NCBI RefSeq assembly: GCF_036669915.1
Contig: NC_089316.1
Location: 8,048,020-8,112,019, forward strand
Source of the DNA: Pocillopora verrucosa
Lineage: Eukaryota; Cnidaria; Anthozoa; Scleractinia; Pocilloporidae
DNA: 64,000 nt
Direction of reading: 5' to 3'
The first letter of the stretch is position 1. Every line of letters starts with the position of its first letter. Of the stretch, positions 304 through 64,000 are shown one piece after another. The notes beneath the pieces are model-generated. The model saw nothing but the letters and a program-made list of their open reading frames with translations, searched no databases and was not told the DNA's origin. The translations under genes and the position numbers were made by a program.

Positions 304-397
304 ACAAGCTGAGTAGTAGGTGATTGATTTTTTTTCTGGAATTTTGTAAGTTTGTTTGTATTTCTGGCTAAGTAAATTTGGCCAAATTTACTTGGCC

Positions 398-13400: not shown

Positions 13401-15016
13401 TTTGTGTATGAAAGTGACACCCACAATTTTTATAAGACACAAATTAAAGAGAATAAACACAACACATCCCAGTGATTTCATGTCAAAATAATTTTTGTTT
13501 AGGATTAACTGCACTCGGGGCGCACTTCAAATCCTCATTTCCCATCCAAAAGAAACCTGCTGCTAATCACATTCAGGCAGCAAGGATCAAGAAAACATGC
13601 CTTCATGATCCATGAGCAAATTATCTCTTATCATTAAGTAGGAGTGCCTCTATCTCAGCCAATTAGTATCTAGTAGTTGTTAACCTCATATATGATAAAT
13701 TATAGAAATGCATGTTTGGACATAGAAAATATATAGAACGATGTATTGATGATAATACTATCATTTAAAACTTAAAACCATTATCACCAAGTTAAATGAA
13801 ACCATTGCAGATCTTAAACATTTCATTCCAGGAACAATTAAAAAGTATATTCTCCTTAGAATAAAAATACAATGTTGAGAAAAAAAGTGATAAGAAGAAA
13901 AACAATTTAAATGAAGAGGTATTACTTGCTTTCGAACCACATTCTCAAGATAAGAAAAAAAAACAGAATTTATGGTGAACAGTAACGACAATTTATAGTC
14001 AGATTTCAAAAGTGGTTTCAAGGGCTAAAAGAAAAACTGCTGCGAACCCTCAAAATTAATAATGCACAAACTGTGCAAGTATTGCAATACTTTTTACAAA
14101 TCAAAGTACCTGATATAATCCTTTTAAGCCAGCTGTTCTCACAATTGACTTCACTGCATCAGTAAGTCCTCTGTAAGCTGGTAACTTTCCACTTCCATCA
14201 TTAACTGAGAAATAATAATATTGGTAATATCTTTCTGGCAAATGTTTCATGCATGTATGCTCTCTGATACTATATCACAACGAAGGTATTTTTAAACTAG
14301 ATGTCAAACAACACGTCACTAACACGTCAACACGTCACGTCCGTGTGAACTTTAACACGTCACTAAGTTTAAACAACGAGAGTTTTCAGTTAACGAAACT
14401 GAGAGTTTCAAAGAGTTGCAAAAAACATTCCAAATGTTCCTAACTGGATTATTGTGGATCACTTCCTTTTTTGAATGGTTCTAAAGTAAGCGAAAGACAA
14501 ATACAAGTAGTCTTGTATGTGATGGAAGTTTCGATTATTTCATCTCACAGTTTCGGGTCAAATTATACTACAAAAATGTATGAAATTTACTGTATTGAAA
14601 GAGGTGCAAACATTTATGAAATAGTTGTATTAGTGCCGGAATAAATTCACACATATATGTTTTGCATAACGATTAACGCTCAAGTTAATTTATTAAACTT
14701 AAACTATTAAAGTAACCTCGCCACTTACAATTCTAACGTCACGATGAGTCGATGGTGATTTCCGAATTCGGCGGAAGGCAGCTTCGTTAGTGAATGGAGG
14801 GTATCTAAAACCTGGTGTGTCTATTGTAAGATGTTATATTTATTACCCAATCTTACCTTGGAATCTTATTTTAATCAGGTCCAACGGATGCAGCACAAGA
14901 GTTGACGTAACTCCTCCAGACACGCCAGCGATAAGATGCTCGTAGCGAATAAACCGAGTGATTGAAGGCGTTTTTGAAGTTGCTGGACGGTCTGGAATTG
15001 CCTGTTGCTCGCTCAT
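7467..15016 (-). CDS. SLC25A32: mitochondrial folate/FAD carrier, SLC25A32 orthologue
   Basis: Eleven coding exons on the minus strand: 15016-14857, 14204-14110, 12912-12857, 12716-12631, 11206-11096, 10713-10664, 10005-9892, 9104-9012, 8461-8403, 8111-8061 and 7539-7467. They join in frame to 315 aa, the length of the human protein. The three carrier signatures are visible: [18 protein letters not shown] (with Trp in place of the usual acid, typical of this subfamily) and YPYQVVRAR. The end [14 protein letters not shown] is also diagnostic. The protein carries folate and/or FAD across the inner mitochondrial membrane by six helices in three repeats. Introns hold MITEs, a poly-G run (9634-9652) and a long homopurine tract. 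The last exon lies in the inverted duplication and has an orphan copy at 30254-30326. Confidence 0.96.
9437..9663 (+). mobile_element. MITE family 1 copy (TTAACCCTTTA terminus)
   Basis: Begins TTAACCCTTTACACCC, ends AAAGGGTTGA; the core (CTCCATACTGTTCTCTGTAC, then TCTCATGACC and GATATTGTAAGGAGAA) recurs at 22707-22918 (inverted) and 53537-53746. This copy contains a 19-base G run near its 3' end. Intronic in SLC25A32. Confidence 0.8.
11344..11535 (+). mobile_element. MITE family 2 copy
   Basis: CCCTTTAACC...GGGGTTAA termini and shared internal words (CTACACATTTCCTT, AGAATTTGGTGT, CCTGTTTGCTGGATAAT) with 54637-54847. Intronic in SLC25A32. Confidence 0.78.
11551..11871 (+). repeat. homopurine GGA-rich minisatellite
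   Basis: About 320 bases made almost only of A and G on the plus strand, in irregular 6-13-base units such as GGAGGAGGGGAAA. It lies in the intron between the SLC25A32 exons at 12631-12716 and 11096-11206, so the transcript carries the pyrimidine strand. Long ORFs on both strands here are an effect of the repeat, not genes. Confidence 0.92.
14309..14362 (+). repeat. short degenerate tandem repeat (ACACGTCACTA)
   Basis: AACACGTCA recurs four times in about 55 bases in intron 1 of SLC25A32. Confidence 0.7.
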
Positions 15017-16806: not shown

Positions 16807-17835
16807 CTAGTCGAATATAACTATAATTTGCACTAGGCCGTCTTCATTTACATTGCCGCCAGTCACACCGTGGCAATTTTCACCAGCGCAATACGAACCA
16901 CCTCCCCCTCCGGCTTGTTTACCATGGGTACCGCTGCCTCCTCCTGAGTACCCTCCCCCTCCACCTGATGCACCGTTATCCTCTGCTCCTCCTCCACCTC
17001 CACCAAACCCTCCCACTGCTCCTGGTGCCGGTCCACCGTTATTTCCACTGTTCATACCTCCTGCTTGACCTCCAATCCAGCCCTGAGCATGTGACCCACC
17101 TCCCTCTCCGTGCTCAGATCCTTTTCTTGAACAGCTTTGGCCATTCCAACCCGCACCCACTCCCCCATGGTAGTTAGCGTCATCATTGTTACATTCTCCT
17201 GGTTGCCCCGTGGTACCACCCTTCTTCACATGTGACGGATCGTTCCCCACACTACTGGTTCCACTTGTTCCTGCCTGACCGTCCACACCATTATATCCAC
17301 CAGATGCGCCTCCACCTCCTCCGGCAGCTAACAACAGCACATTGGTTGCGGTATAAACAAAGCTCCCTCCTCCTCCCCCAGTGCCAGCATTGTCTTCAAC
17401 AGACAGCCCAAGCTGAGCTGCTGTCATAGTAGTGCTTTGGCCACCTTTTACCTCCACTGAATCTCCTCCTCTCTGCCCTACAACAATACTTAGAATAGTG
17501 CCTTTGGTCAGTCTAAACGTCCCTTCTATCGCTGCCCCATAGCCGCCATAATAGGTTCCTGGTCTGAATCCATAGTCGTAGGAATGCGCCCCTCCCCGAG
17601 CGCCCAAAGCTTTAATGAGATACTTGGCTGATCTTGGGACGGTGAATTTTTGAATGATACCAAGTCGTCCTTTACGGCCATCAGGTGTAAAAGAGAGGGG
17701 AGCTTTAAGAAAATGACGTAACATCCGATAAGTGATTGACCATCCCCGGCCATTATTACTTTGGTTATAGTTGCACCACACTCGGACAAATAGCACTCCA
17801 ACAAAAAAATTATATATCAAGAATTTCCTAAACAT
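16807..17835 (-). CDS. secreted glycine-rich protein with ALK/LTK-type Gly-rich domain, intronless
   Basis: A single open frame of 342 aa. Residues 1-21 look like a signal peptide (MFRKFLIYNFFVGVLFVRVW). From about residue 60 it matches the extracellular glycine-rich domain of ALK/LTK receptors: FTVPRSAKYLIKALGARGG, later GGGGSFVY, LLLAAGGGGGASGG and a tail of Gly runs with paired cysteines (SYCAGENC), ending in an acidic strand (DGLVQIIVIFD). There is no transmembrane or kinase part in the frame, so it may be a free-standing ligand-binding or matrix protein. It lies 443 bases downstream of the collagen-Ig gene on the same strand. A possible acceptor at the signal-peptide region has the phase needed to join the last Ig exon, so it could instead be the final exon of that gene. 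Confidence 0.8.
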   Translation of the reverse strand: MFRKFLIYNFFVGVLFVRVWCNYNQSNNGRGWSITYRMLRHFLKAPLSFTPDGRKGRLGIIQKFTVPRSAKYLIKALGARGGAHSYDYGFRPGTYYGGYGAAIEGTFRLTKGTILSIVVGQRGGDSVEVKGGQSTTMTAAQLGLSVEDNAGTGGGGGSFVYTATNVLLLAAGGGGGASGGYNGVDGQAGTSGTSSVGNDPSHVKKGGTTGQPGECNNDDANYHGGVGAGWNGQSCSRKGSEHGEGGGSHAQGWIGGQAGGMNSGNNGGPAPGAVGGFGGGGGGAEDNGASGGGGGYSGGGSGTHGKQAGGGGGSYCAGENCHGVTGGNVNEDGLVQIIVIFD

Positions 17836-18278: not shown

Positions 18279-21200
18279 CTAACCTTTCACCTTCAGAAAT
18301 GTTCTTGCCTCAATTGTAAATTGGGGACCTTTGGCTTCGCACACATAAATTCCTGAGTCTAATTCTCTCAGAACCGAAATAGTTAGGGTTCCTTTGTCTA
18401 CCTTCATTCTCTTTTCGTCCCATGCCCCCGCTGCTCGTTTCCAAGAAATCAGAGGAATAGTCTCTCCTATGGCGGAACAGTTTAGAGACACTGACCCACC
18501 AACCCCATTAGTGGCCATGTCTGGTGGCTTCGTGACAAATTTTGGTGCCGACCAAACAAACAAGGTCGTAACTGCGAAAGCTTCTCCGAGATGGTTCCTG
18601 GCTCTGCATTCATACGGTCCAGTGTCGTTTTTTTGCACATCAATCACTGTCAAATCTTGCTGATTATAAACTGCTCTCTTTTTAGCTAAGGCACCGGTCA
18701 ATCTTTTCCACGACACGACTGGCTTCGGAAAGCCGGTCACGTGACATTTGGGTAAAGTGATGTTTTGTCCCACCCTTGCATGAATGGGTCCTGAAGAAAG
18801 TCGAACTTGTGGTTTGGCTAAATGGAAGTAAATTAAATAATTGATATTAAAAAAATAGTAGTAAGCAGATAACGAAATAAATTCACACCCAGTCTTTCCT
18901 GTGGCGATAGAGAAAAGAATTGGAAGGGAAAATATTGGACGTAGTAGAGTTTTTGTTCCACGTACTTTTCTCTTGTCGGTAACCATCGCGTATATCGCTT
19001 TCTGAGCGATTTATTACAGGACCAAAACATTTGATTGGCTAGCGAGACAAAAATGTTGATCAAACTGAGTTGAAATAACTTGGACTGAACCACGGGCTTT
19101 GATTGAAGAACGAAAGTATTTTTCTCTCTAAACCGTGGAGTTCAAAATTATATTAGGCTGAAGTCAGCAGTTGAATACTCGGAAAACTTCAACATGAAAA
19201 CTTAATCGCATCGGCTAACTTTATGGTCATGTTTATTGTCACAAAACTAAAATGTTCCCGAAACAAATGTTTCCATCCAATTGTTTGCATCCAAAACTTT
19301 GCATCCAAAACTTTGCATCCAAAACTTTGCATCCGTAATTCTTTCAATGGATTTTCGTGCAAAATAATTCAATTGCTATGTCACCCTCGAGGAAAACAAA
19401 GCAAAAAGATTCGTTTATGCTTAACTCTCACATTCAATACCGTCAATACCTATTCCTACCTTCAACAATTAGCTTCGCAGACTTGCTCTCGGAACCCAAG
19501 ATATTCCTTCCAACGCAAGTGTATTTTCCCGCGTCGCTAAGAGTCACGTTATGGACTTCTAATCTCCCACCCCGAGTGCCAAGGTGAGAATCACTTTGCA
19601 GATGAGTACCATTTCCTCGTACCCACATCATAGTCGGTTGAGGATTTCCACTGACAGAACATTGGAACGCTGCTCTTTGATTTTCTCTAACTGTTTGCTT
19701 AGCTGGAGAAACGACAACTGAGGGGAGAGAAATGGATTCCCCAGGTTCTCCTTTAGTACCGGGTGGCCCCCTGAGACCTGGGATACCTTTAGCACCCTGC
19801 GCACCCTTTTGACCCGGCGGTCCGATATTTCCCTGTTTTCCTGAAGGCCCTGGTTCTCCTCTAAAACCACGTAACCCTTTCCTTCCCGTAGATCCACGCG
19901 GACCCTTCCTTCCACGTGATCCTTTAGGTCCTTGCAATCCCGGTGGTCCCTGTACACATGTTTGTTCTTTGGGCGAACAAAATGATTGTGGTGACCATGA
20001 GCTTATGGTCTTGTTTATCTCACTTCTAACCACCTCTATAGTAACTCCGTCAGGGATAGGTCGTTTTTGAGATGAAGAGTGGTGACGGGTTCTTCTAGCG
20101 TGAACTGGAAAGAATTTGTTCGTTTTTTTCAAAAAGTATTTGAAAATTAAAGCTGGGAACACTTTCAAATCTCTTCACTTCATAAAAATCTAAAAAGCGG
20201 TTTATTCATTAAACCAAGTTTGGTTCCAAACCGGATTCTTCTAACTAACAGTTACCCGGTTTTTGCGAAGCCCTGTAAACCTTCGGTCGCTGAAAATTAG
20301 TGAAAGGAGACCACCTTTTCTCGGGCAATCACCGATATTCGTTTTCTCGCTCTTTCTATAGCCTCCTTTGAACGAGAACCTGAAAAAAGGCTCAACTTTT
20401 CCCTGAGTCACGCAAGAACACTTCACGTTTATTCAGTAGTTTTTAAAAAAAGGGGCTGAAAACACCACAATCAGAACTGCTCTCTTGAATGTAACACATT
20501 CAGCACAAGGGTGGCAGAGGTTTGACGTGGATGGTATCTTGGGAAATTTGAGTAAGGACATAGCATGGTCTTCGATGAACACCCCTACCCCAATCCCCTC
20601 GAGTTTCAAAACGCTCCGCCATCCCTGACCTTTTTGTGCTGCTATCACGATGAATAGCAGACGTCCCACTCTTGCCAATTATTCAATCAACGATGGACCC
20701 TTTATATCCTTGGAGGGCTTAGCTGTATAACAATTCAATCATGAAAAAATTAATCGAAAAATTGATCCAAATTATAGATGTAGAGGGAAAAAAGAAGTAC
20801 TTTGAACGATCGATTGAATGATTTTGATCATTTCAACTGCTCTTGGACTTTTGCAACCATGATCGCCAAAGAAAGCCCCCGGAAAAAAAATTGAGATAGT
20901 GGAAAATATTTCGCCAGGAAAAATTTATATCGTATCATTAAGATAGACAAAATCACCGGTACTGGCATGAAATAAACAGAGAGCAAAAGGTAGTGCAATA
21001 GCTTTGGATAAGCTCGAGGATCCTTTAAATTGTAAGTTGATTAGAGGAAAAAAATTACCTTCGATCATATCTTTGCTCTCCTTAGAAATATTGCTATCAA
21101 AGTTCCCGACAGAACCAGTCCTTCCAGAGTCTTGGAAGCTTGCTCCTTCACTAGAATCCTTAATTATGGATTCATGTATTTGCCTCACTTCCGCTATGAC

Positions 21201-22918: not shown

Positions 22919-24112
22919 TGAAAGATGTAATTCGTTTGCAATACAAGCGTTGGGCAAACGACAAATCTGAATAGACCATAATTAATTTAATTTATGACGC
23001 GTATCCTAAGAAAGGTGGTAAATATTAACGCAGTGCTCAAACGTCTGCGTATGCATGGCCATTTTAAGAACCAGGTGGCGTATGTTCAGGCTGTCAGAAG
23101 CAAAATGTTTCAGTAGAGTAAAAAACTGACAAACAAGTAATTCACGGTGTTTTAAAAGCGTATGAATTCTTTGGTAAAGGTCAAAAGTAAATGGTTAATC
23201 AACAGGATACACGCGCTTAAAAATTCTGGAGTTTTCCTTTCCTCCACTTTTTTTTCCTTTTACAGACTTCTGTTAACGATTCACTTTTTCTTTTGCTCAT
23301 TTTGCTAGACTGTGGTTGTTTCTTATGTTATCCTTTGATATTTTGCACGGAAAATCTGCTCATGGCCAGCCAGAATTGACCCCTCGCCTATTCCCTAAGT
23401 ATCATTAAAATCAATCTCGGTTGCGCGGGTCGACTCATCGTGGAGAGTTAGATCTTTTCTTTGGCTCACGCCTAAGGAAAAAACGAAAAGCATATTTCTT
23501 TCCTTCACGACCAAGCTCAAATTTCACCATCTTCCTTGTTCTTTCTATTGTATTCCAATTCCCCTGTAAACTATCAAACGAATAGATTCGATGACTATTG
23601 CATTACAAACTCTGGTTGTAAAGCTGGTTGAGCTGTTTAACTCTTTAACTTAAAGTGATTTGTCTGGTAATTCTCTATTTTTGTCTACATGAGGTTTTGC
23701 AGTGAAGTAGGTGTCTCAACAAAAATTGATAATAAATTAGTGACTATATTTTCGTAGTTTCATCAACTTTTGCTGGGTGATGTTTTTAAAATTGTTAGAA
23801 GATGTTTCATTTCAATCACTACTGGAAGCTTAAAGGTAAGTTAACCAAGAAACAAACTTAAACATGGGAATACGGAACACCAAAACTTTAGAAATTTAAA
23901 GGCGCCAAAAGGGATCGATGATAAACAAAACAGATCCCTATAGTATTTACTGTAAAGTTGCATCGGCGCTTTGCTTCAGAACAAGAGAAAGATATTGTAG
24001 TAGTGTAGTGAAGCCACAAAGGTACACTACAAAGGCTTAAAAACATACGCTCTCGCACACACCTTTAAGTTCCCGGATATTTGCGAATTACCGCTGTCCT
24101 AATACACTACAG

Positions 24113-25976
24113 CTATTCCGTACTACAGTAACGGGTATTACATGTTGGTACTCCAGAGAAGTAATATACGTAATAAGAGCCACAGTTTCTTACTTGGATG
24201 TAGGTGGACCATCTACAACAGTTTGAAAACCAGTGAAAGCAGACCTGCCTGGTAACTTGACCCTCAGCCACTGTGGGATGAACTCCATTTAACCAGCTTG
24301 AGATATCAGCTGTACACCTATGAGTTGGTGGACAAGTGGTTGGCATTTTTGTTCCTGCAGCTCCTTGGAAACGATACCAGCCATGGGGGAGTGAGTTATC
24401 GCACAAAGCAGACCCGGCTTTGGGGATTGTGGATTTACGGTCGGCACTGGTCAGACTTGAGTAACTTTGGCACTCCTCGACTGAAGCAAACATTACTTCG
24501 TTGGATTAATCAGTAAGGAGTTCACGCGTATGAAAAGTCAATGAAAGTTCAAATCAAATTAATTACAAATTATTCAATTGGGAAAATTCTTTTGATTATT
24601 TTGTATCATTTGTTGGATGCCCAAGCTACTATTTCATACCTTGGCATGATTTACCATCGCCAATGTATCCTTCGTTACAGGTGCAGTTGTGAGAACCTTC
24701 AGTGTTGGTACAATTCGCATTTACGTCACACACAGTATTGCTGTCTTTGCATTCATCTATATCTGATTGGAAAGTAATCAAAAGAAGTCAATGCTAGCAA
24801 AGATTCCTTGAATGATTTACGCATGAGAATCGAATTAACAAATAGATTCCAAGTTGCCGTCCGTCTGTTCAGTAATAGATCACAGAGGACGTCAAAATGT
24901 GATGACGTCATCTATACGTCTGTCCTCCAATAGATCATAAGTGACAACCAATCAGAATGCGTGCATAACTGAGCTTATTATATAATATTGTACCATAGCG
25001 TCACGATAATTTTCTACCTGAGCATGAGTGTCCATCCCCAGTAAATCCTTCTTTACAGGTGCAATTATAAAACCCAACAGTATTGGAGCAGTTTGCATTC
25101 TTGTCACAGACATCGTTGCTGCTTTTACATTCATCGATATCTAATTGGAAATTGATCGAAAGAAAACATTAAGACAAGGTCCAAACACTGTGTAAAGTAA
25201 TTCTGTTCTTGGTATACTGACTTACCTCCCAAGTTCATGTCGCAATAAACCAACTTTGAACTCCCGACATAAGTTGGATCCAACCAGTACTTTTTACTGA
25301 TGCTGCTTTTTCCTTCACTTAGTTTTATCTCTTGGCACGATAACGCTGGTAATTCAGGAATAGATCCTAAGGGGGCTACGATATAGACATGACTTCATTA
25401 ATGGTTTGAGGGTAATAGAAGTTGCAATACAGATTAGAGATGAATATATATTTGTCTGGGCGAGATAAACATGGAATGATAATAATTAAGAGCTGTGAAG
25501 TTTAGCTGCTATTAATATAGAATGGAGGGTGAATTTTGCTTTAAGACAGTGCCCCTATTTAATAACAAAGCAATCAGACACTTGCTCTCGGAAAGTGATG
25601 GGTTTTTACTAAGAACTCACTGAAAAAGATTTGTATGTAAAATAAACTAGACCGGATACGTACCTCTACCACTGAGGCGTCCCATGTAAAAGCGTAAACC
25701 ATCTGGCTGGAAATTCTCGGGCCTTGCTTCCTTAGTTCGGATGTTCAATTCACAGGACTTTTCCCCAATTACATAATTGTAGCTTTGACATATCGTTTCT
25801 CTCTCGCAGGTGATATCGCACACATGAGGAGCTGTTACTGGGACCTTTTTAAAGACGAATCCTTTGAGAGCCATACCAGGTACGTTAACTTCTGTCTTGC
25901 ATGTATTTTTAGCAGTAGAGAAGTTCATGAGATACAAAGAGGCTAGGAAGATTAAGAAGCTTGAATTCCTCGCCAT
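24113..25976 (-). CDS. gene B: secreted PAN / fibrinogen-start / 2xEGF / D8C protein
   Basis: Exons 25976-25664, 25375-25226, 25140-25018, 24762-24640 and 24480-24113 join in frame to 358 aa, all junctions phase 1. The signal peptide (about 1-22) precedes a PAN-like domain, the fibrinogen-like SCQEIK...YCDM segment, two EGF repeats (155-236) and a D8C domain (237-358). This D8C has ten cysteines, including TTC and a CC pair found in vertebrate uromodulin-type domains but lost in A and C. The ATG at 25976 was chosen over an upstream in-frame ATG because it gives a compact signal peptide and the family's 313-base exon. The gene is intact. The DNA upstream is shared with gene C, so promoter control may be similar. 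Confidence 0.9.
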
Positions 25977-26619
25977 TCCCGCTGATGCAGAAATTGGAAA
26001 GTGTAGATTACTTAGCCAAACCAGTAGACAAAAAATTATGACAACAGATAGACAGACAGACAAACAAACATGAAGCAAAGTAGAAATCAATTCTGAATCG
26101 ACTGTATCTTAGCAATAAGAAAAGTACAACTTATAAGATTTAATTAAAATAATTGAAGGCCTTTTTTTTATATTTTCCCCGCCCAACTGTTTCCGTGGCA
26201 AGAGTCCACTTTTTAATGATGCTACTCGTTATTTCGCCATTCTACCTAGAAAAGAAAATCAAGTCGATACAATTGCAAAGGCCATAGGTTTTAAACAAGT
26301 TATCCCCACGCTTTATACATATTAAAGCAAATTCCCGCACGAATGGCACAATTTTTTGGTTATTTGATTAGCTTCGTAGCACAAAAAAACTTCAAAATCT
26401 TGGAGAAAAAATAGAGTTTTGTAAGCTCAACCATCATCATTCTTAAACTAAATAAGCACACCTTCTATGGATGACGATCTATGGTGATGTTAAGAATCAT
26501 CCGTGTACATACGGTATACAAAATGGAGCGCTCATGGAAACATCGAAGTTTTCTAAAATATGATATTTTGATTGAATAACATAGGTATACTCGAAGAAAA
26601 AGAACTCGATCAGAGTGCT

Positions 26620-26700
26620 CGCAATAGGAATCGAATTTATGGCTCTCTGATTAGTACTTCGGATATTCTGCCAACTCGTGGCAGGCTAGGCCGTTAGGCT
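26620..26700 (-). mobile_element. tRNA-like SINE, copy upstream of gene B
   Basis: Minus-strand sequence has a B-box-like ATTCGATTCCTATTGCGAG and a tail with TTCTTTTTCTTCG. The same element at the same relative place upstream of gene C (38095-38190) shows it was there before the B/C duplication. Confidence 0.6.
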
Positions 26701-27339
26701 ATGTGCGTAGTGACAAACTTCATGCACATTGCTAGCACATGAATGTCGAATGTGATGCTTTCGCGCAATGATTTAACTAAATTAAAAAAAACTAAAAACT
26801 AAAAGCTGACACATTGAAGAATTCTCTCTTGCTCAACACTAAAGAAAAAAATTGTTCTAAAACCTTGCGTCACACAGTAAATCACAAAAAGTCGTAGAAA
26901 GTCGATAAAAAGAAAGAAAATTAAACGTTTCTCATTCTCTGCCCAAGATTTCAACATTTAAAATTTTTCTGTGTCGAGCAGCAACACCCGACTTACGTCT
27001 ATTATGCTGCATAAAGACAGCGTTCATCATCAATTAACATATTCTTTTTGAACAAATTACTTGAAAAAAAATAGTAAATAGCTCACGTCGTAAATCCGTC
27101 GATTTGAAAGATCCTTTCTCTGTTAGTTAGAGAATTAGAGATATTACAGTCATTCCAACATCTTATCCCATTACATAGCTGCAAGGAGAGGGAGATCATC
27201 TCATCCTAGTTTTTTCGGAAAATGTTTTTCTTTTCTATTCTTTTTTCTTAGAAAGGAATAATTATCATACTATATCGAAATAATCATTTAAAAATGAAAT
27301 GTCTCATTCTCAGATTTTTAACTTGCTAGCGTCAAAGAA

Positions 27340-28541
27340 AACTGGCTCACGTTTTTTAGCATGTAACACGCTTCCTCCAGAGTTTTTAGCGAGGAATAAA
27401 AAACCCTCTAAAAACGGACAGTATGCTAATTGGAATGTCAAGAGACAATGTAAAGTACAACTTCAAAGTTGTATCAGAGTATCTGAGGTCTTTTGGCTTC
27501 TCTCAGCTTTTGTGGAATGATACCTTTGATGTTCCTATCTAGTGTTGTTAACTCACGTAGATAGCCTTACCAAATTGGTTAAGTAGAATTTCAAGTAGCT
27601 GCGGTTCAAAAAAAATTAGAAATTAGAAATTAGATATAGAAATATTCATGAAAAGGCTCAGTTTGGAAACACATTGAATCAGGGAAACTAAATCCTAAAA
27701 TTGATGGTCTGGTCTTACATAGCAGCCGTAATTAGTTTGCCGTCAAAAATTTACCAAACTCTATTTTGGGATTGAAGCCAAACTTATTCTACGAAACTCT
27801 AGGGCTGATGAATATAAGAAATGCGATCCTTAAACATCTGCAGCTGATTGTCAACGAGTTAAACATGCTCTCTTTCAACTTCATCGTTTCTGTTTTGGTT
27901 CCTCGCGTGCAACAAAATTCAACAAAATTCGGGCGGGAATTTGAGTAATATAATCGTTAATTCTGTCTACGATGTTTGTAAATCAACGGCGAAAAAACCT
28001 GTTTCATTAATTTCAAAGTAAAATTTAATCGGTACAAATTATTAGCTTTAGGCACGAAGTAGAGTTCGGTAAATTTTGATTACAGACCTACGAAAGCTAT
28101 ACTTTAAAATGAGCTCTTAGGAGTATTTTGGTAACAAATCCCTCTCGGTTTTCCATTATCCATTGCCTAACTAAAGAAACTCATCCATTACCTAATTAAG
28201 GAAAAAATAATTTAGCTTCAAGAAAAAAAACTGGTTTACCTTTTTTAGCATGTAGCACGCTTCCTCCAGAGTTTTTAGCGAGGAATAAAAAACCCTCCAA
28301 AAACAATGCTGTCATTGGCACTTATAACAGTAGTTGCTGTTACAATAGCCAATATCTATCATGCTCTTAATAATTTATTTCTTGCTCCTGTTTGTCGTTG
28401 ATCAACCCTTTAAAGGCGATGCTGTCATCGGTGCTTGTTTCTTGTAACTATAGTTACTGTAACAATATTCCATATTTATCATGCTATTAATAATTCATTT
28501 CTGGTTCCTGTTTGTCGTTGATTAACCTTCTAAAAGCGATG
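27340..28541 (+). repeat. dispersed direct repeats and a 118-bp tandem pair
   Basis: 27340-27415 and 28228-28305 share TTTTTTAGCATGTA and CGCTTCCTCCAGAGTTTTTA plus GCGAGGAATAAAAAACCCTC. Directly after, 28304-28417 and 28418-28541 are two degenerate tandem units sharing CTCCTGTTTGTCGTTGAT-type sequence. Non-coding. Confidence 0.8.
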
Positions 28542-30253
28542 CCGTAAATGCGCTGTTTTTTTGTCCTAAAAAAATCAGAATCTATTAAAAAAATGTACGT
28601 TGCAACTTTTCGAAGTTGTATGAGTGTCTAAAGTGTAACTTAGGATAAAATAAAACAGATGATTTTCATAGAATATTCATCAGCCTTAAGATAAAAACAA
28701 CCTTAAAGGAATCTTTATATGATGAAATCAATCGCACACACTTCGAATGGCAAAATGGAACCACACTGTTTTGCCCCCCACAACGCATGCTTTACCAGCG
28801 CCAAAAAGGCGTCCTGTATTCTTAAAATATTAATAAAAAGAACCCCTGAACGTCTTTAGTTAAATTCCTTTTGTTTCTCTTTTTTATTTTGGAAGGTAAA
28901 TGCCTGTTTGCGATATCATCCAAATTAAGAACGGCTTTGAACATCATGACAACTTTGGAAAACTATGATTTTAAAGCGATCATAGTTTTGATAAAAAAAA
29001 ATGGCAAAAGTGCTGTAACTTCATTCATTTTCCTTTTCTCCTTCCTTTCTATAGATTCTACAATCCGCCACGGCTGCCTGCGTTTAGAAGTTGCATTGCA
29101 AAGTGTTAGAAGGTGTTAGCAATATTTGACTTTCCAAATATGGAAAGATAACCTGTCAATTCTGAGTAATTCTCTTAATTCATGGTACTCTTTCTTATCT
29201 TGGGAGCTTTGAATAAATTTGAAAATGTCATAACAAGTAGAAAGACGCTTCAGTTTAATCTTGGGTTTATGAGCCGCAATAACTCTTAAAAAAAAAAAAA
29301 AAAAAAAAACTCTAAATTTGCAACCCCTTCGTCACCACAATATGATATGGTATCGTATAATTTGCTTAAAATGAGAGACAGGTCCTAAAAACTATTTATG
29401 ACCATCATTTGAATGCAAAACTTTTGATACTAATAGAGACTCGTGATCCTAATAACCACTAGTCCTAAAGAATTTTCTAATTTAATTTACAGGTGCCGCT
29501 TTGGTTTACAACTTTGGCGCTTATATTCCTGTTTTGTTTCTACCGCTGAGAACTATAGAAATTTAAAAAAAAAGGAATAAAAGAATTGTGAAACTATTTC
29601 GAAAAAAGTGTCTGGGACATGGTGTTTGTTTCCGTTGAGAGACTCGAAGTTTGAGGCGTACTCATTTAGCGTCACTCTCAGGGTCCTGTTCGCGGTTCGA
29701 GATATTATCAGATTTTAATTCATTTGATGCCCGATAGCCTTTCCATATTCGTTCTAGTGCGCTGATTAATTTTAAACAAATAGATCATTTTTATGTTTCG
29801 CAAGAAATCGATTCCGTTGCGTTATTTTTGAGATTATGTTGGGAAAAGTTTCAAGTTATCACGTTGACTTATTTTCCAACGATTACGGTCCATCTATTTG
29901 CTAATTAGAATGATAAATCCAACTTTTAGTGGTTTGGGCCAGGTTACCTATGAGTAAGAGTCTCTTTATTTTTCTTCTCCTTAACATTTATGGAGATATC
30001 AGGTGTGTTAATTTGATAGACGGTAATGACTTCTTAGCGTACAACAAAGTTACTCTCATTTCACCAATAGGCCTCGAAGGAAAGCTTAGGAAAATCTCTG
30101 GTCATAAAATGTCACCTGATTGGCAATTCACCTCTATAATAACAATAACCGTAACGTATCAAAGAAAAAGTGCGCGGTGTGCGGTGAAAACACATTTATT
30201 GTTGATTTTACTGTATATTGTTTGTGTCATTGTTGTTGTTGTTTTTTTTTCAG

Positions 30254-30326
30254 AGTAACGCCAGCATGTGCACCCACATTCGTGGTGTACGAAAACGTTA
30301 TTCTCTTCCTTTGGCCAAACAAATGA
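30254..30326 (+). pseudogene. orphan last exon of SLC25A32
   Basis: Seventy-three bases behind a pyrimidine-rich CAG acceptor, the same length and phase as the genuine last exon (7539-7467). They encode [20 protein letters not shown] ending PNK and stop. No other carrier exon lies upstream; the homology ends at about 30190. It was carried here with arm 2 and is not expected to make a protein. Changes such as A-L to A-P and a Trp suggest relaxed selection. Confidence 0.93.
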
Positions 30327-32388
30327 CATCGACAGGATAAATAATGCAATCCAGCCATGGGTAGCAAATGAATGTACATCCCTTAGCACTAACAAAGGCA
30401 AAAACTGTAAAAAATGCCTTTTTGCAAGGTTTTTTTTTATTACTATTTACTTAAAGATAATTAACAATTGAATTCTAACGATACTTGTGACAAATTACTT
30501 GCAATTTAATGAAGAAAGATGTTCAATATAAATTAATTATAAGAAAGTAAATTAATTTAGTTAACTGTACAAAAGATTGACCTTATTTTCGTTTTTCTGT
30601 TACTTACGTTACAATCTTTTTCATCAACTCTCTCCATTTGTTACTGTATCGTTGTGATGTTAAGTTACAACCAGTTTTGATTGATTGCTCTGTTTTTACT
30701 TCACTAGGTTCTGGTTTCATGCATTTTCTGGACTAATTCCTTGTTGTTCTTGTTATTATTCCCTGGTTATCTATATTAATTCCATTACAAAAATTGTGAA
30801 AGCCTCTCTTCGCGATTGCTATTAAGTGAATTTGAAGAGTCTTTTACATAACCTTTCATCAGATGAGTGGTGTCGAGAACCTACTCTGGCCCGTGGATTA
30901 CACTGCCCTTAACATTTACTGTCGTGTTCGTGTTATGAAAGTCAGCTGAAAAAAATCCGTGTAAGGTAAATGTATTTACAAAGAGATACATAGTTTTTGT
31001 TAAATGATGAGATAATATACACGATGTCTGTCTATTTACACCACTCAAGGAGCTGAGCCACAAAGTGACCCAGCTCATATCACTTCCCTTTAAAAAGATC
31101 AACAACAGTTTTTCTATATTTTGATACGTTGTTAATAAACTCGCCCTACTTTGCCCCATTTGCTTTGTGTTCAGGTCTCTTCTTGTAAATTAGAGACAAA
31201 TGAAATGAAAAACATTTATATAGCGCCATCTTCCATTAATTGTCCACGCCGCTTTACAATACTCTAAAAACCGTAAAAATTAAATTCCTAAGAATTAAAT
31301 ACACTATAACTACAAGTACAAATTAAATGCACATCTAATTTCCCGAAGACTAGTATTAGAATATTGAAATATCAGGCTTTGGGGGTGGGGGGGGGGGGGG
31401 GGTTTCTTTCCCGCGCTTATTATTTTTCATAGGATTCTTTGAATATTTTTGCATCATAAAAAAAGGAAAATTTCACAGTGAGAAACTGTGATTTTGATTT
31501 TAAATCTAACATTCTTGTGAAAAGTTGTTGGTAATGTACTTAACCGGTGTACAAAGTTGTTTACAACTTGTGTTTACCTATGCTACTCCAAGTACTTATT
31601 TTTAACGCATCGCAGCTCTAAATACTGTTCTTTTGCGTGTTTATGTTTGAAAAACAAGTCAACTTTTGAAAGCTACTTGCAGTTTTTAAACTGCACTCGC
31701 CCTACGGGTTCATAAAATCTGGTTAGCCTTTGAAAACTTACTCGTGCTGATTTCTTCCAAATTGCACTCGAAATGCCTGATTTCCTATACAAATTGTTGC
31801 GAAAATTATTTTAACAAATTTTATCTTGAATAAATGACCTGCCCGCGCGCTTAGTTAAGTAAGCTCTATAGGAACACTTTGAAGCCATTGTGTAAAGATC
31901 TTTAGCTTAGATTCAAATCAGTCTGAGATGTAAGCGATCCATTTCGAATGCATCCTAGTCGATTCGGTCACATTTGATACACGGTTACGACAGGCTAAAC
32001 CATCGAGGTTTGCTTACTGAGCGTCCGAAAATTCGTGATTATCATCACTTTTTTTTCTACGCCTATAAAGTAAGATGGCGCCTACTGGTCATTCCACTGA
32101 CCTACGCTAAAATAACCATGGTTAATAGTTACAGCAATAGAAGGATGAAAAAAAAACGAAAAATTAATACATAAACAAAAGGCTCGAAAACCATAAGTTT
32201 GAGAGTTTGCGTTTCTCTGCGATGACAGAGGCTATCTAATGAGAATTATCACTATGGTGAAATCAATAACTGTTTGCCACAGGTTAAAATCTGCTGATAA
32301 TGTTTATGATAGAAAAGAAAGGTTAACTATGTCACATGGTAAAAGCGGTTAGAGTCCTCTTGCTACGCAAAGTATGTTTGCTTCATAT
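30327..32388. other. intergenic, counterpart of 5358-7466
   Basis: Reverse-complement match to the gene A / SLC25A32 gap, with indels. A poly-G run at 31381-31402 and about 190 bases around 31200-31380 are present only in this arm. No gene seen. Confidence 0.7.
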
Positions 32389-32499
32389 TCAGTCTGTACC
32401 ACAGTAGCGATAGTTACAATAACTTGGCTGTTGAAGTTTGTAGATGAAGTAGGATCCACAGTTTTTCACAGAAGTAGTCTTCGTGGCTTTACAACCAGA

Positions 32500-35400
32500 C
32501 TAACGATCGGTAAAGCAGACCTTCCTGAAAACTTCACCATCTTCCACTGCAGGATGAGCACCATCCAACCAGCCTGGCCATTGTGTTCCACATCTGTTTG
32601 TTGGCACACGTGTTGTTGGCATTTTGGTTCCTGCAGCTCCCACAAAACGATACCATCCCTCAGGGAGTTGGTTGTCGCACAATTCTGAACCGTGACTTGT
32701 TAAGTAACTTATCTTTCTATTGGCATCACTCAGGTCTTTATAATCATAGCAAGGATCGGCTACAAAGTAAAATGAAAATGCAGAAGGACTTCGGGTATTA
32801 AAATCAATGGTTCAAGATTTTTTCTAATGTCTTATAATTCTGGCAGCTTGCCAATCAGAGGTGAAACTTGTATTTAACAAGAAAAATGACTATGCATTAA
32901 TTAAGGGGTCAAGTAGTACATGGGATCATGTGTAGGATATCATCACTCGAAGAGGCTCAGTGATATTAAAAATCCAAATGAATTCAGCAGGATCCGAATC
33001 TGAGCTCCTTCTTTCTCAGACAGCGCCTTAAAAGACAGCTCTTGGTAGACTTAAGGTGCAACCAGTACCGTTTACATATGAAAAAATAATAATATGGCCG
33101 ACAGTGGCCACCTCAGCAGCTTGAGGTTAGATTCGAGCAGGAATATTCTAAATATTATAGCAAATAGATTAAATTCACCTTTGCAGTTTTGACCATTTCC
33201 ATTAAATTCAGGCTGGCATTCACAAACAAAGGATCCTTTGGTGTTCGTGTAGATAGCATTCACGTGACAAGAGTGAATTCCTTTACATTCGTCAATATCT
33301 GAGAAACCATATAAATATTTGCACTTTATCATTTCTGTCACTTTAAAAATAGGTGGACTCTCAGTCATGTCAGTATTACTTTGATAATTATAAATAAAAA
33401 AAAAAAATTTTCCTCTTTTTTGTGTTTCACAAATTAAATGTTTGAAACGTATATTTCACCACAAATTTTTGAATTTATCAAGCTATCGGCTCTGAAACAA
33501 CTGGCTTGTTCGTGCAGCTCCCACAAAACGATATCATCCCTCGGGGGGTAAGTCGTCACAAAACACTGTTCCAGATGGCGGTATAGCGTAACTGCTCTTT
33601 CTATTGGCATCACTCAGGTTTTGATAATTACAACATGGGTCGGCTACTAAATTAAATAACATTGAGAAAAGATTGTAGTATCAAAGATAAAATGTTTTTG
33701 TTGACATTTTAAAATCAGTGACTTGTGTTTTACAAGAACAACTATGCATTAAAAAAATTTTTTAAGAAGAATTTGTGTCGGACAATGATGATGCTCATAG
33801 GAACTAAAATCAAATGATAGCATTATAAAGAGTTATGTTTCCCCTTGCTATAATCGCCCATCAACTAAAGCCTGAGTTGTTTGTATGTATCTCAACTCAG
33901 TGGATGCTACCAAATGCGTTTAGGACATTTTTGGTCCTCAGCTCCTACACAATGAAACCAGTCCAAAGGTATTCGGTAGTAACACAATTATTTCCCAGGA
34001 CTGCGTAATAACTGCGTAATAACGTAATAAATATTAGCATCATCCAATTATTTATAATCATGAAGCAAATTGCCTTGCATAAGTCAAATAAGTTTGAATG
34101 ACCATAGCTGTTATTGTGATAAGGTAATTCTCGAAGGTTAGAGAATCTTAAAGGATTTTTACGGTTCCACGAAAAGGGTCAGATAAGGTCAGAGAAAAAT
34201 GTGCAATCCCTTCAGAACTCAGCCTAACCATTTCTTTTTAGATCTTTTTGTTTTTGTTTTTGCTTTTTTTGTTATCATTTTCGCATTCGTCATGAATCTG
34301 GTTAGTGAGATAATTTGGTTTTATTAACTGAGTTGATAATGTAAATTGGCCACTATAAAGAGTTATGAAGCTGACGTTTCGAGCGTAAGCTTTAAAACTC
34401 TATACGATGGCCAATTTACGTCATCAACTAGGTTAATAATACTTAGATACCCTGTTATACTATCCCACCGATGCAGCATCACAGTTTCTTTAGAACCTTA
34501 CCCCCTTCGTCATCGCTCTTTCTATCAGTTCACTAGGGAGGTAGATCACGCGGCATGTTGTAAGAACAACAGAAAAGTTTGTACTTCCGAGCTGGAGGTG
34601 ATTGATTTACTTTTTTTTCGAATGGTTTTCCAACATCTGGAGACGTTTACTACGCTGGTAAACCGTTAGAAAATGCAGTCTGTTACTTTAATAAAAGCCC
34701 TGGGTATTAGCGCAAGATCCATTCGGATGACATTCGTTCATTTTAATGAAGTAAATCAAGGCATGAGCCTGGCTGCATTCGTCAACAACATAAACTTCAA
34801 TTTTCCATAGGTTTACCGGTGCAAGCAACGATATTTTTTTGACCAATCAGAGCGCTCGAAGTATCTTGATAATTTTATAAGCAGTTTTCAACTTCTTACG
34901 CGTAAACGAAAACGGAACGCCTTGGAAAAGCACTTATATATCCAACCTGTAGACAGGGTTCAGAGCCAAACGAGCGATATTATTTTCATACTTTTGTCGA
35001 CCACTTTTACAGGATCTATTTAAAAGCAGAATAACAATGCATCAGTCACCAAAATTGTTCATTCAAAAGTCAGGAACGTTACCTAAGAGGTCCTTAACAC
35101 GAGAAACGGCTACTTGAATTAAAACGAGTTATGAGTGAATGGTACTGCTGTAGTCGAACGTGTCTAAATGTTGAAGCGAATAGATTAAACTCACCTGTGC
35201 AGTTTTGCCCATTTCCAGTATATCCAGCGAGACATTCACATACATGTGATCCGAGGGTGTTTTTGCATTTAGCATTCTTGTAACAGGAGTGATTTCCTCT
35301 ACACTCGTCAATATCTGAGAAACCGTAGATTTGCATTTTATCATTTTTGTTAACTAACAATTTGTAATAACTTTAATCGTTTTAAATAATGAGAAACAAA

Positions 35401-36789
35401 TTTCTTTCTTCTGTCTTTCACGAACTAGATTTTTGAAAAGTACATTTCACCACCAATTGTATTCTCTTGTCACAAAGAATGTTTTTTTCTTTTTATCTCC
35501 TAACATGATGACTCTCGAACAAACCGGTTGTAGATCATGGCAACTCTGTGCATAAACATGTATGGGTAATGCTGCTTAAAAAGCAAAACTTAACACTGAT
35601 AGGACAACAGTTCCTTCTAAAATTGCTTTGTTTAATGCTAGGGCTTCACTGATATATATAGCATGCAAGCTATTATTGGTCTATTATTCACTCACTCGAC
35701 TGTAGATAGCTCAAATGTACCTCCAGTGTTTTTAGGCGAAAAAATATTAAATATTGTAACTCGGCATGTCTGTAACTATTTTACCTGAGCACGAGTGTCC
35801 ATCCCCAGTAAATCCTTCTTTGCAAGTGCAATTATAGAATCCAACAGTATTGGAGCAGTTTGCATTTTTGTCACAAATGTTATTGATGCCTTTGCAATCA
35901 TCGATGTCTGATTGAAAATTAATCGAAAGAAAAAATTGAGACAAGGTGAAAAAATTCTACAAAAGGGAAGTGTAAAGGTAGACCAACCACTGTGTAAAGT
36001 AATCCTGTTCTTGATATGCTGACTTACCTCCCAAGTTCATGTCGCAATAAACCAACTTTGAACTCCCGGCATTAGCTGGATCCAACCAATACTTTTTACT
36101 GATGCTGTCTTCACCTTCACTTAATTTTATCTCTTGGCACGATGACGCTGGTAATTCAGGAATAGATCCTAAGGGGGCTACGATATAGACATGACTTCAT
36201 TAATGGTTTGAGGGTAATAGAAGTTGCAATACAGATTAGAGATGAATATATATTTGTCCGGGCAAGCCTTGTTTATGATAAACATGGAATAATAATGATT
36301 AAGAGCTGTGAAGTTTGGCTGATATTAATGTAGTATGAAGGGCGAATTTTGCTTTAAGACAGTGGCCCTATTTAATAACAAAGCAATCAGACACTTGCTT
36401 TCGGAAAGTGACAGGTTTTTACTAAGAACTCACGGAGAAAGATTTGTATTTAAAATAAACGAGACCGAATGCGTACTTCTACCGCCAACGCGTCCCATGT
36501 AAAAGCGTAAATCATCTGGCTGGAAATTATCGGGCCTTGCTTCCTTAGTTCGGGTGTTCAATTCACAGGACTTTTCCCCAATTATGTAATGGTAGCTTTG
36601 ACATATCGTATCCTTCTCGCAAGTGATATCGCACATATGAGGAGCTGTTACTGGGACCTTTTTAAAGACGAATCCTTTGAGAGCCATACCAGGTACGCTT
36701 ACTTCTGTCTTGCATGGAGTTTTAGCAGTAGAGAAGTCCATGAGATACAGAGAGACCAGGAGGATTAAGAAGCTTGAATTCCACGCCAT
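32500..36789 (-). CDS. gene C: PAN / 3xEGF / D8C paralogue truncated by a stop codon
   Basis: Exons 36789-36477, 36177-36028, 35907-35785, 35314-35195, 33298-33179 and 32759-32500 join in frame to 361 aa. A TAG at 32502-32500 follows VFRKVCFTDR in D8C; the frame then continues to the family's usual stop at 32391-32389, so 37 residues and four of eight D8C cysteines are lost. The stop is in the last exon, so the transcript could escape nonsense decay. The third EGF has Tyr where the third Cys should be (IYTNT against ICTNT in gene A) and PEF for PGF. Signal peptide and PAN domain look sound. Exons 1-3 resemble gene B, exons 4-6 gene A. It is a decaying or truncated gene; expression is unknown. 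Confidence 0.85.
33500..33662 (-). pseudogene. relic D8C exon fragment inside gene C
   Basis: Minus strand behind a TAG acceptor reads ADPCCNYQNLSDANRKSSYA, then FCDDLPPEG, a stop in place of the conserved Trp, YRFVGAA and decay at the same CAGTTGTTTCAGAG junction as the relic in gene A (2491-2660). It lies between EGF exons 4 and 5. Confidence 0.85.
33880..34045 (-). pseudogene. counterpart of the second D8C-like relic
   Basis: Reverse complement matches 4606-4760 (words such as ATTTTTGGTCCTCAG and AAATGCGTTTAGGACA). Heavily decayed. Confidence 0.55.
34345..34530 (+). mobile_element. remnant of a dispersed repeat (GCTGACGTTTCGAGCG type)
   Basis: Contains AAGCTGACGTTTCGAGCGTA and GATGCAGCATCACAGTTTCT, with a partly inverted TATAAAGAGTT / AACTCTATA. 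It has the look of a common cnidarian MITE fragment, from memory. Inside gene C intron 4, with no match in arm 1. Confidence 0.5.
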
Positions 36790-36941
36790 TCCCGCTGATG
36801 CTGAAATTGGAAAGTGTAGATTACTTAGCCAAACCAGCAGACAAAAAGTTATGACAACAGATAGACAGACAGACAAACAAACATGAAGCAACGTAGGAAT
36901 CAATTCTGAATCGACTGCATGTTAGCAATAAGAAAAGTACA

Positions 36942-37012
36942 TAGTTCCTCATGGGAACTCTGAATTTTTCTTTGTCCCACACTCGTGACAAGACGAAAAA
37001 CATCTTTCTTTA
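36942..37012 (+). mobile_element. 5'-truncated SINE inserted upstream of gene C
   Basis: GTTCCTCATGGGAACTC, then TTTGTCCCACACTCGTGACA and AAGACGAAAAACATCTTTC, is the 3' part of the full SINE at 61773-61898. Gene B lacks it at the matching place (near 26130), so it arrived after the B/C duplication. Confidence 0.8.
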
Positions 37013-37204
37013 TTAGATTTAATTAAAATAATTGAGGGCATCTTTTAATATTCTCTCCGCCCAATTGTTTCCTTGGCAAGAGTCCACTTTTTAATAATGC
37101 AACTTGTTATTTCGCCATTCTAACTAGAAAAGCAAATCAAGTCGATACAATTGCAAAGGCCATAGGTTTTAAACAAGCTCATCTCCACGCTTTACACGTA
37201 TTAA

Positions 37205-37824
37205 GAGAGGATGTCAGTATCAATCGAACAAATTTAAAATATTTTGGCGAGTCGCCCAAAATTCGATTTAACTCCTACTTTCATATTTTGTAGCCCAGTA
37301 TGTCCTAATAATTGTGGTGTAGTTTTTTTGTGAAAATATATTTTAGTTTTCGAGAAATAATTTTTTTCGTTCGATCGCTCAAGTATGCAAATTTTCACCG
37401 TTGATATTACCCAAGTTGTGGGACCTCATGTAACGAATGTACTTGACCTCTGGTATTTCTGTCAACATAATCCTTTGTTTTATCACCTAAACTTAATCTC
37501 CTGTCATTATTGAAGCTGGAAAAGTAATACTTATTTTTTGGCTAACATTTTTGTCCGACATACTTTTCCTATGTTGAAAAGTAACATCGAAACAAAGACA
37601 GTTTTAACAATGACCGATATGACAGAATCTGCTGAGCTTCAAGTTTTTAAGAGACAAAAGGATGGTTAAAAAGTTACTGTAAAAGTTTCCTTGTGTATTT
37701 GTGTTGTTCTATCTTGAGACGAACTCAAAGTCCGGCAAAATTTACTTGTTAGCGACTATGAAATATACATGGTGTGCCTGATACGACTTGCCGCTGTTAG
37801 TCCCATTCATGCTGACATAAGCTC
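37205..37824. mobile_element. 620-bp TTAA-flanked DNA element (piggyBac-like MITE)
   Basis: Flanked by TTAA at 37201-37204 and 37825-37828, with imperfect 13-base inverted ends (GAGAGGATGTCAG and, reversed, GAGCTTATGTCAG). The homologous site upstream of gene B (26322-26325) has a single TTAA and no insert. Exact TTAA duplication is the hallmark of piggyBac-type transposition. No transposase ORF, so non-autonomous. Confidence 0.85.
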
Positions 37825-38094
37825 TTAAAGCAAATCCCCGCACAATTGGCACAATTTTTTGATCATTTGATTGGCTTCATAGCACAAAAAGACTTCAAAA
37901 TCTTGGAGATATAAAAAGAGTTTTATAAACTCAACTATCATTATCCTTAAACTAAATACACACACCTTCTATGGATGACGATCTATGGTGATGTTTTGGA
38001 ATCATCTGTGTACATACGGTATATAAAATGGAATCATCGAGGTTTTTTATAATATGATATTTTTAGTGAAAGACACGGGTATACCCGAAGAAAA

Positions 38095-38190
38095 AGAACT
38101 CAGAGTGCTCGCAATAGGAGTCGAACCTACGGCCTTCTGATTAGTACTTCGGATGTTCTATCAACTCGTGGCAGGCTAGGCCTGATGACA
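38095..38190 (-). mobile_element. tRNA-like SINE, copy upstream of gene C
   Basis: Minus strand has a good B box (GGTTCGACTCCTATTGC) and the tail TTCTTTTTCTTCGGG. Shared with 26620-26700. Confidence 0.6.
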
Positions 38191-38936
38191 AACTTCGTGC
38201 ACACTGCTAGGATATGAATGTCGGATGGGAAGCTTAATAATAAACCTAAATTAAAAACTGACACATTGAAGAATTTTTTCTTGCCTAACATTAAAGAAAC
38301 AAAGTGTTCAGAAACCTTGCGTCACACAAGACTGAGCCCCAAAAAGTTGTAGAAAGTCGATAAAAAGAAAGAGTCTTTCAACGTCTCTTATTCCCTGCCC
38401 AAGTTTCGACATTTAAAGGTTTCCCGTTTCGAGCAGCAAGACCCGACTTACGTCTTCCACGCTGCATTGCACCTTAAAATTGGAGATTTGATAAGGACAG
38501 TTTTCATCGTTAATTAACATATTAAAGTCACGCACGGCTTTGCACATCATGAAAACTTTGGAAAACTTTGATTTTAAAAGTGATCATGGTTTTGATAAAA
38601 TGGCAAAACTACTGTAACTTCATTCATTTCCTTTTCTCCTTCCTTTTTACAGAAGCTATAATCCGTCACGGCTGCATGCGTCAATAGAAGTTGCATTCTA
38701 AAGTGTTTGCAGGTGTTAGCGATATTTCACTTTCAAATATGGAAAGACAACTTCTCATTCCTGAGTAATTCTCGAGATTAATGCTACTCTCTCTCTTATC
38801 TTGGAAGCTTTGAATAAATTTTTGAATGTCATAAATAGAAAGACGCTTCAGTTTAACCTTGGTTTTATAAGCCGCAATAACTTTCAAAAAGGGAAAAGAA
38901 AAACTTCTTTTCATATATTATTGATAGCAGCTAAGT

Positions 38937-39137
38937 ACAGCTGTGTACTTAGATGCCAAGCCTTTGATTTGGAGTGAGGCTGAAGGTGACCTAGTTGTCA
39001 TAGAGACCAGAATCAAGTTAGTATGATAACAAAGTAATTTGTATTTGAAAAGCAGCAAGGTTTGTATCGTGACAAGGTCAACATTACCCTCACTCCTGTT
39101 CAAAGGCTTGGCAACCAAGCACACAACTGTACAATGG
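38937..39137 (+). mobile_element. MITE with about 28-bp terminal inverted repeats
   Basis: Left end AGCTGTGTACTTAGATGCCA and AGCCTTTGA; right end CAAAGGCTTGGCAACCAAGC then ACACAACTGTACAATGG is its reverse complement with few mismatches. A second copy lies at 50202-50409. Confidence 0.85.
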
Positions 39138-39904: not shown

Positions 39905-41180
39905 CTTTTACAACTACCTCGTTTCTAGCCTCGATAGTAGAGAAAAGCAAGTTTGCTTCACAAATGAACACTCCATAATCAGCCTCTTTGAGTTTAGATA
40001 TCTTCTTAACTCGTCTTGTCGAATCTCGCCATACTCGCATCTCTGGCACCTTTAAATCTCCTCCAAGAAATACTTGAGGGTGGAGAGCAATCTAAGAGCC
40101 ATGTCATCCCAAAGACTTTTGGAAAATTTTGCGGTAACCTTGCTTTAAATGTTGGTACAAACCAGACAAACAGCGAGTCAACGGTTAATGCTCCCCTAAT
40201 GAATTCTTGGCGTGGCAGACGTACAGTCCAGTGTCTTGTTTTTGGGCGGCTCCCACAGTCAAAAGTGCCTTCAACCTGAGAAGTCCGGTCTTTCGACAGA
40301 TAAACTGGTAGCTTACGCCGAGAGATAACTGGTACTGGAAAACCCGTTACGTGGCACTTTGGCAGCGCAGCGTTTTCACCTACTTTTGTTTGGGTCGGAC
40401 TTCAAGCTAGTTGAACCCGAGGAGGTGCTACGAGGAGAAGAGTTATACATAATTTTCAAAGTTCACCCATGGATAAACAACTTTAAAAAACTTTTAACGA
40501 TGGCGGTAATAAAAACTATCATGATAATAGTGGTACTGCTAGCATTTAGATCTGGGGTAGATGAAATCGTGTTCCGAATTAATTCGGCCCTCGAGTCCAA
40601 TTTTATCTTGTTCATAGGAAGTGCTTACCTTCAATAATCAGTCGGGCTGTATGGTTTGCGGTGCTTGATAAGTTTCTTCTCGTGCAGGTGTATTTACCCG
40701 CGTCGTCAAGAGTCACGTGACGCACTTGTCATCTCCCACCTTGACCAAAATGAGAACGACTACTTAGGAGGATTTTTTTTTACCTCTAACCACGTAGTGT
40801 CGGTGTAGGATTACCACTCACAGAACATTGGAACACTACACTTTAATTTTTCTCTGACCGTTTGGGGTCTATCTTAGCACCAGGTGACCCTCTTGTACCC
40901 GGAACTGCTTTGATTCTCGGTTCCCTAATCGGGTCTCGTGGTCCAGCATTGCCCTGTTTTCCACACGGCCCCGGATCTACTCCGACAAAACGTGATCTTT
41001 TCTTTCCCACGTCTGCTCGCGTTCCTCTTCTCCCATGGGATACTTTGGGATTCTTGCATTCCCAGCAGTCCTTGCATACATATTAGTTCTTTTGTTGAAC
41101 AGAATGATAGTGGGGACAGCTAGTTTAAAGTCTTGTTTATCTCGCTTCTGATTGTCACCATGGGAATTTGATTGGGTTTG
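39905..41180 (-). pseudogene. decayed copy of the collagen-Ig gene
   Basis: Minus strand matches exons 2 and 3 of the gene at 18279-21353: collagen part about 40865-41030, first Ig about 40640-40860, donor GAAG/GTAAGC at 40627, then Ig2-Ig3 to a donor AAAG/GTAAAT near 39905. Gly-X-Y periodicity survives only by changing frame, and stops occur in the collagen and Ig parts. No counterpart of exon 1 (membrane segment) was found upstream to 43 kb. It is a broken duplicate. Confidence 0.82.

Positions 41181-58634: not shown

Positions 58635-64000
<5,366 letters not shown>

Follow-up and report, generated by a model that had tools for sequence, protein, structure and literature searches.

The terminal exon of a mitochondrial carrier gene is present twice in the window, a 64,000-nucleotide stretch of Pocillopora verrucosa genomic DNA: once in its own gene and once in inverted orientation, about 23 kb away. 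With a probability of about 80%, the second, orphan copy is a neutral relic that marks where a DNA-mediated, partial (chimeric) segmental duplication ends. This class of event, a chimeric segmental duplication with a passenger exon, is already known; the present case shows legibly how a local gene family forms chimeric paralogs, with the passenger exon of an unrelated gene marking one edge to the base. It also calls for caution in gene prediction, as the intact-looking terminal exon at 30254 is probably located outside any gene.

The carrier gene and the orphan copy of its last exon

The carrier gene and the two copies of its last exon are located as follows:

7467–15016, minus strand: SLC25A32-like mitochondrial carrier gene (parent), approximately ten coding exon pieces positioned by tblastn, E3 only in part
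7467–7539, minus strand: parent copy of the last carrier exon, 73 bp (sequence, tblastn)
30254–30326, plus strand: orphan copy of this exon, 64 of 73 positions identical (tblastn E = 8e-9)

The joined carrier peptides match the Pfam family Mito_carr (PF00153) in three stretches with an E-value of 2e-55, which supports the name "mitochondrial carrier". The finer name SLC25A32 is an assumption, because the solved structures matched by the carrier are other mitochondrial carriers only (13 sequences). A pattern scan for the carrier matched 11 stretches in genome contigs and 4 in viral contigs, none of which was confirmed.

The parent exon, read from 7539 to 7467, opens with one base from a split codon, continues with 23 codons, and closes with TGA. 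The orphan exon has the same phase and length, an AG acceptor at 30252–30253 preceded by a run of nine T and one C, and a TGA at 30324–30326; it aligns to the parent without gaps. The preliminary description had reported a 73-base terminal exon occurring twice, inverted and about 23 kb apart, with its acceptor, phase, and stop kept, and this is confirmed to the base. A chance match is ruled out: when the parent and the copy are set aside, the third-best place for the exon on both strands of the window has 35 of 73 identical positions, and 20 single-base shuffles of the window, with one strand searched in each, gave maxima of 34–39. Seven of the 23 codons differ between the copies, and five of the 23 residues are changed, one of them from L to P.

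A tblastn search with nine query peptides covering approximately ten exon pieces (E3 as a 22-residue part only) found a significant second copy of the last exon and of no other tested carrier exon within the window. The next-lowest non-self E-values, 0.009–0.08, belong mostly to carrier repeats matching one another. The earlier statement that the second site holds no other carrier exon is thus valid for these nine peptides. The orphan copy is not a mitochondrial carrier gene, as complete carrier repeats are absent and tblastn found no further exon nearby; the 68-aa frame that holds the exon has no Pfam match at an E-value of 0.01.

The duplicated block and its edge

The orphan exon belongs to a longer region of inverted homology, in which the following features can be distinguished:

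697–5357, plus strand: gene A, encoding PAN, three EGF_CA, and D8C_UMOD domains, with TGA at 5355–5357 (Pfam, ORFs; start guessed at the first suitable ATG)
2531–7609, plus strand: source block at gene A, comprising EGF exons, D8C exons, the 3' flank, and the tail of the carrier (alignments; the inner order differs in the copy)
30185–30361, plus strand: that end of the duplicated block which derives from the carrier, with approximately 70 bp of the last intron, the exon, and approximately 35 bp past the stop (alignment)

On the intron side, the alignment extends approximately 70 bp into the last intron of the carrier and ends sharply at 7609/30185. Beyond the exon, the inverted homology goes on into a third gene of the gene A family, gene C. 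Both the extension into gene C and an end near 30190 had been described before the alignment and agree with it. The 3' flank of approximately 2.1 kb mostly aligns between the gene A locus and its copy (84.4% identity, 1307 of 1548 aligned positions, 25 gap runs), and the D8C exons of genes A and C are identical at 300 of 372 positions. The frame of gene A (PAN/EGF/D8C, plus strand) ends at 5357; therefore, the block takes in both 3' ends of a convergent gene pair, the other member being the carrier on the minus strand, as had been proposed.

A stretch of 235–327 bp inside the block (7105–7431 and 30362–30596) is located between well-aligned flanks and does not align: identity is 44%, and the local score, 25, stays below the highest value of 200 shuffles, 31. 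A small inversion was rejected as the cause of this gap, the corresponding score being 21 against a shuffled maximum of 33.

The marks of a DNA-mediated partial segmental duplication are present: intron and intergenic DNA has been copied, the breakpoint is inside the donor gene, and the other tested exons of that gene are absent elsewhere in the window. Because the copy contains an intron flank and intergenic DNA, it is not a processed retrocopy. A repeat-bearing element as the carrier of the exon was also rejected, since 29900–30450 contains no repeats of at least 14 bp and the homology is kilobases long.

The orphan exon could also have been left alone by a deletion, if a larger duplication once held a complete second carrier. 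A deletion ending at 30185 would mimic a duplication edge, and nothing directly separates the two histories. However, the other tested exons have left no significant trace elsewhere in the window, the edge at 30185 is sharp, and one extra step is required, so that we regard this explanation as unlikely.

Mosaic structure of gene C

The copied block forms only part of gene C, the organization of which involves another member of the family:

24116–26108, minus strand: gene B, same family, with its own D8C exon (D8C_UMOD E = 3.4e-17, ORFs; ends approximate)
30185–35783, minus strand: gene C region, A-like part in inverted orientation, with its end at 30185 (200-bp sliding best match)
35779–38903, minus strand: B-like part of the gene C region, with the upstream side, PAN, the next exon, and the first of the EGF exons (matching pieces of 25012–29305 in direct orientation)
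35765–35790: B-like sequence gives way to A-like sequence at the 5' splice site that follows an EGF exon (pairwise alignments)
32500–32502, minus strand: TAG that interrupts the frame of the gene C D8C exon, a sense codon in gene A (alignment, ORF end)

Gene C is a mosaic of a B-like 5' half and an A-like 3' half. Overlapping 200-bp windows, taken every 100 bp, were compared with 1–9000 (A) and 23000–30000 (B). Matching windows that start from 30100 to 35600 favour A, and those that start from 35700 to 38800 favour B; windows starting at 30000, 30400, 34100–34900, 37200–37600, and 38900–39100 match neither, while those starting at 29800 and 29900 fall inside the B comparison stretch itself. 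Genes B and C diverge right after the GT of the splice site at approximately 35780, where the A-like sequence begins.

The exons give the same picture. B and C are 92–93% alike across PAN, the exon that follows, and the first EGF exon, and A is 65–76% like either; two exons in the 5' half of gene C are 93% identical to B versus 66–70% to A. For D8C, likeness is 81% between A and C and 60% between B and either of them. When alignment columns are counted by the pair that they unite (B with C, A with C, A with B, each time against the third gene), the numbers are 62/6/4 for PAN, 43/4/4 for the following exon, 20/1/5 for the first EGF exon, and 21/97/22 for D8C. The two halves thus group with different paralogs and have different histories, and, as in a chimeric gene duplicate, two donor sequences are found in one locus. 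The exon following PAN, common to all three genes, looked to us like the presumable start of a fibrinogen-type domain, with no Pfam match to back it.

When the A-like half is compared with gene A, a rearrangement can be noted. From 5' to 3' along gene C, the pieces of A appear out of order: 3172–3365, an EGF exon (72–79% like those of A), approximately 0.9 kb without a match, 4556–5121, 2531–3158, and 4964–7609. The jump back from 5121 to 2531 coincides with a pair of related D8C pieces in gene A (2499–2623 and 4996–5121, 80% alike), which suggests an unequal exchange between them. In one EGF frame of gene C, a Tyr replaces a Cys of gene A. With the TAG in its D8C exon at 32500–32502, gene C may be decaying or may encode a shorter protein.

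The preliminary description had assumed a single event. This is not established, because the halves of gene C differ in donor and the order of pieces in the A-like half departs from that in gene A; a history with at least two steps of copying or conversion is the better fit. Noncoding identity between B and C in four pieces is 0.93, 0.907, 0.856, and 0.874, compared with 0.844 for the A–C 3' flank; two of the pieces are significantly higher (p = 0.0003 and 0.018), and two are not (p = 0.56 and 0.17). Given the two higher values, the A–C copy may be older, with the B–C likeness refreshed afterwards. Homologous conversion of the one-ended type, with its start in the EGF exon, is not upheld, as at the 35780 switch the A-like side enters at approximately A 3172, past the end of the nearest EGF exon of gene A.

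Errors of assembly could in principle produce both the mosaic and the orphan exon, given that the joins at 30185 and 35780 are known from the assembly alone and gene families are hard to assemble. However, with the unalignable stretch set aside, A–C pieces differ by 11–22% and B–C pieces by 7–14%; thus, a mere double count of A or B would not account for gene C, although a false join of two unseen paralogs would be compatible with such divergence. We consider this source of the pattern quite improbable.

In the favoured explanation, the starting material was the convergent pair of gene A and the carrier. A block with the end of gene A, the common 3' flank of approximately 2.1 kb, and approximately 140 bp from the end of the carrier gene is found in inverted orientation approximately 23 kb away; since the complete carrier stands at A, we infer that copying proceeded from A to C. 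Joined to the B-like 5' half, this A-like block makes gene C a chimeric paralog. The likely route would be replication-based template switching or ectopic conversion within the local gene family. The acceptor, frame, and stop of the orphan exon would have been kept by chance, and the exon presumably has no present function.

Partial and chimeric gene duplicates, as treated in PMC3449122 and PMC4546093, are similar to this case in being DNA-mediated, with breakpoints in genes, flanks included, and more than one donor. According to the former source, a chimeric duplicate can result when a single duplication takes in parts of two adjacent genes; in the latter, inverted and direct pairs are about equally common among young human duplicates (77 and 66 of 143). 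Unlike in those duplicates, the donor neighbours here are convergent, so that the copy took in their 3' ends, with the carrier exon on the opposite strand beyond gene C; unlike the adjacent-gene chimeras of PMC3449122, the chimera here joins the paralogs A and B. Replication-based segmental duplication (BIR/MMIR; PMC2518615) also involves template switching able to leave fused genes at junctions. That route was shown in budding yeast, whereas here it is conjectural, as junction microhomology is unreadable at this divergence. Tandemly duplicated genes make up 29.9% and 32.6% of the genes in two coral genomes (PMC10236652), where related genes likewise occur in local clusters; the words inverted, pseudogene, D8C, and uromodulin are absent from the main text of that paper. 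The phrase "orphan exon" is absent among the literature matches listed.

Between the exons of gene A, an element at 4112–4497 has 85-bp inverted arms, 98% identical, around a tRNA-Thr-like gene (4306–4378). A 37-bp perfect inverted copy in it reaches into the tRNA start, and the element looks like a tRNA-derived repeat. Another tRNA-like sequence, at 61773–61847, has an odd anticodon call and overlaps a repeat common to 36945–37008.

Selection and transcription at the orphan exon

Identity between the orphan and parent loci is 0.779 in the intron flank, 0.877 in the exon, and 0.857 in the approximately 35 bp after the stop. The exon and the following 35 bp are slightly more alike than the intron flank, and three perfect runs of 22, 22, and 20 bp are left, both of which count against a relic, as does the unalignable stretch inside the block; however, the exon does not differ significantly from the intron flank (p = 0.18) or from the 3' flank with 0.844 (p = 0.62). 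In a simulation of neutral decay with nine random substitutions (20,000 runs per setting, all changes loaded on the copy, indel rates chosen), the acceptor, frame, and stop survived in 20.9%, 14.2%, and 10.4% of runs at 0.01, 0.015, and 0.02 indels per bp. With 10–21% of neutral runs leaving the exon intact, its intactness needs no special explanation, although 73 bp make this a weak test. Over the same 73 bp, identity relative to the flanks and codon changes gave no sign of selection.

It had been suggested that the preserved acceptor could trap transcripts from upstream. The orphan exon would then be a working alternative 3' terminal exon capturing plus-strand transcripts, and the AG behind nine T and one C, together with one donor-like GT[AG]AG site on the plus strand at 29954, the only one in 28.5–30.25 kb, speak for it. 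However, the genes recognised at 7.4–30 kb, namely the carrier, a single-exon ALK/LTK glycine-rich protein, a collagen-Ig gene, and gene B, are all on the minus strand, so that no donor for an exon trap is seen and the suggestion is not supported. Joining the 29954 donor to 30254 gives a TAA one codon past the split codon in the frame from the ATG at 29950, and the exon shows no sign of selection; such capture is very improbable. Among 97 plus-strand ORFs of at least 45 aa at 7.6–30.3 kb, eight, including 30120–30323, were scanned against Pfam, and none matched at the curated cut-off; the sole sub-threshold match was DUF5621 (17.2 bits against a cut-off of 25).

It is likewise very improbable that the duplication edge made a new gene part, or that read-through from gene C yields an RNA which is antisense to the mRNA of the carrier and tunes the carrier. 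An ORF of 102 codons does cross the breakpoint (ATG at 29950, stop at 30258), with a hydrophobic signal-like start and, at its end, a hydrophobic run encoded by the T-rich tract of the old intron. The 113-aa stop-to-stop frame spanning the breakpoint (29917–30255) has no Pfam match and is mildly unusual, a frame as long occurring in 5.3% of 300 shuffles of the 1.6-kb region; over 7.6–30.2 kb, 15 frames of that length were seen against 2.65 per shuffle, real exons included. As for antisense pairing, the perfect runs of 20–22 bp would provide the complementarity of the putative read-through RNA to the carrier mRNA. On the minus strand past the D8C exon of gene C, the first AATAAA/ATTAAA hexamers are at 30510, 30441, and 30200, so that only the third or later ones would carry gene C transcripts across the orphan exon. 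Both hexamers are absent from the 1.17 kb 3' of the carrier stop (6300–7467, minus strand).

The ALK/LTK glycine-rich domain (PF12810, 30.2 bits) is encoded by a single-exon 342-aa frame at 16810–17835. The collagen-Ig gene is located near the carrier; in the literature, one paper that names both corals and SLC25A32 covers synteny of the carrier. Collagen-Ig gene pieces at 19515–20027 and 40684–41149 form a second local pair, approximately 71–75% alike and in direct orientation.
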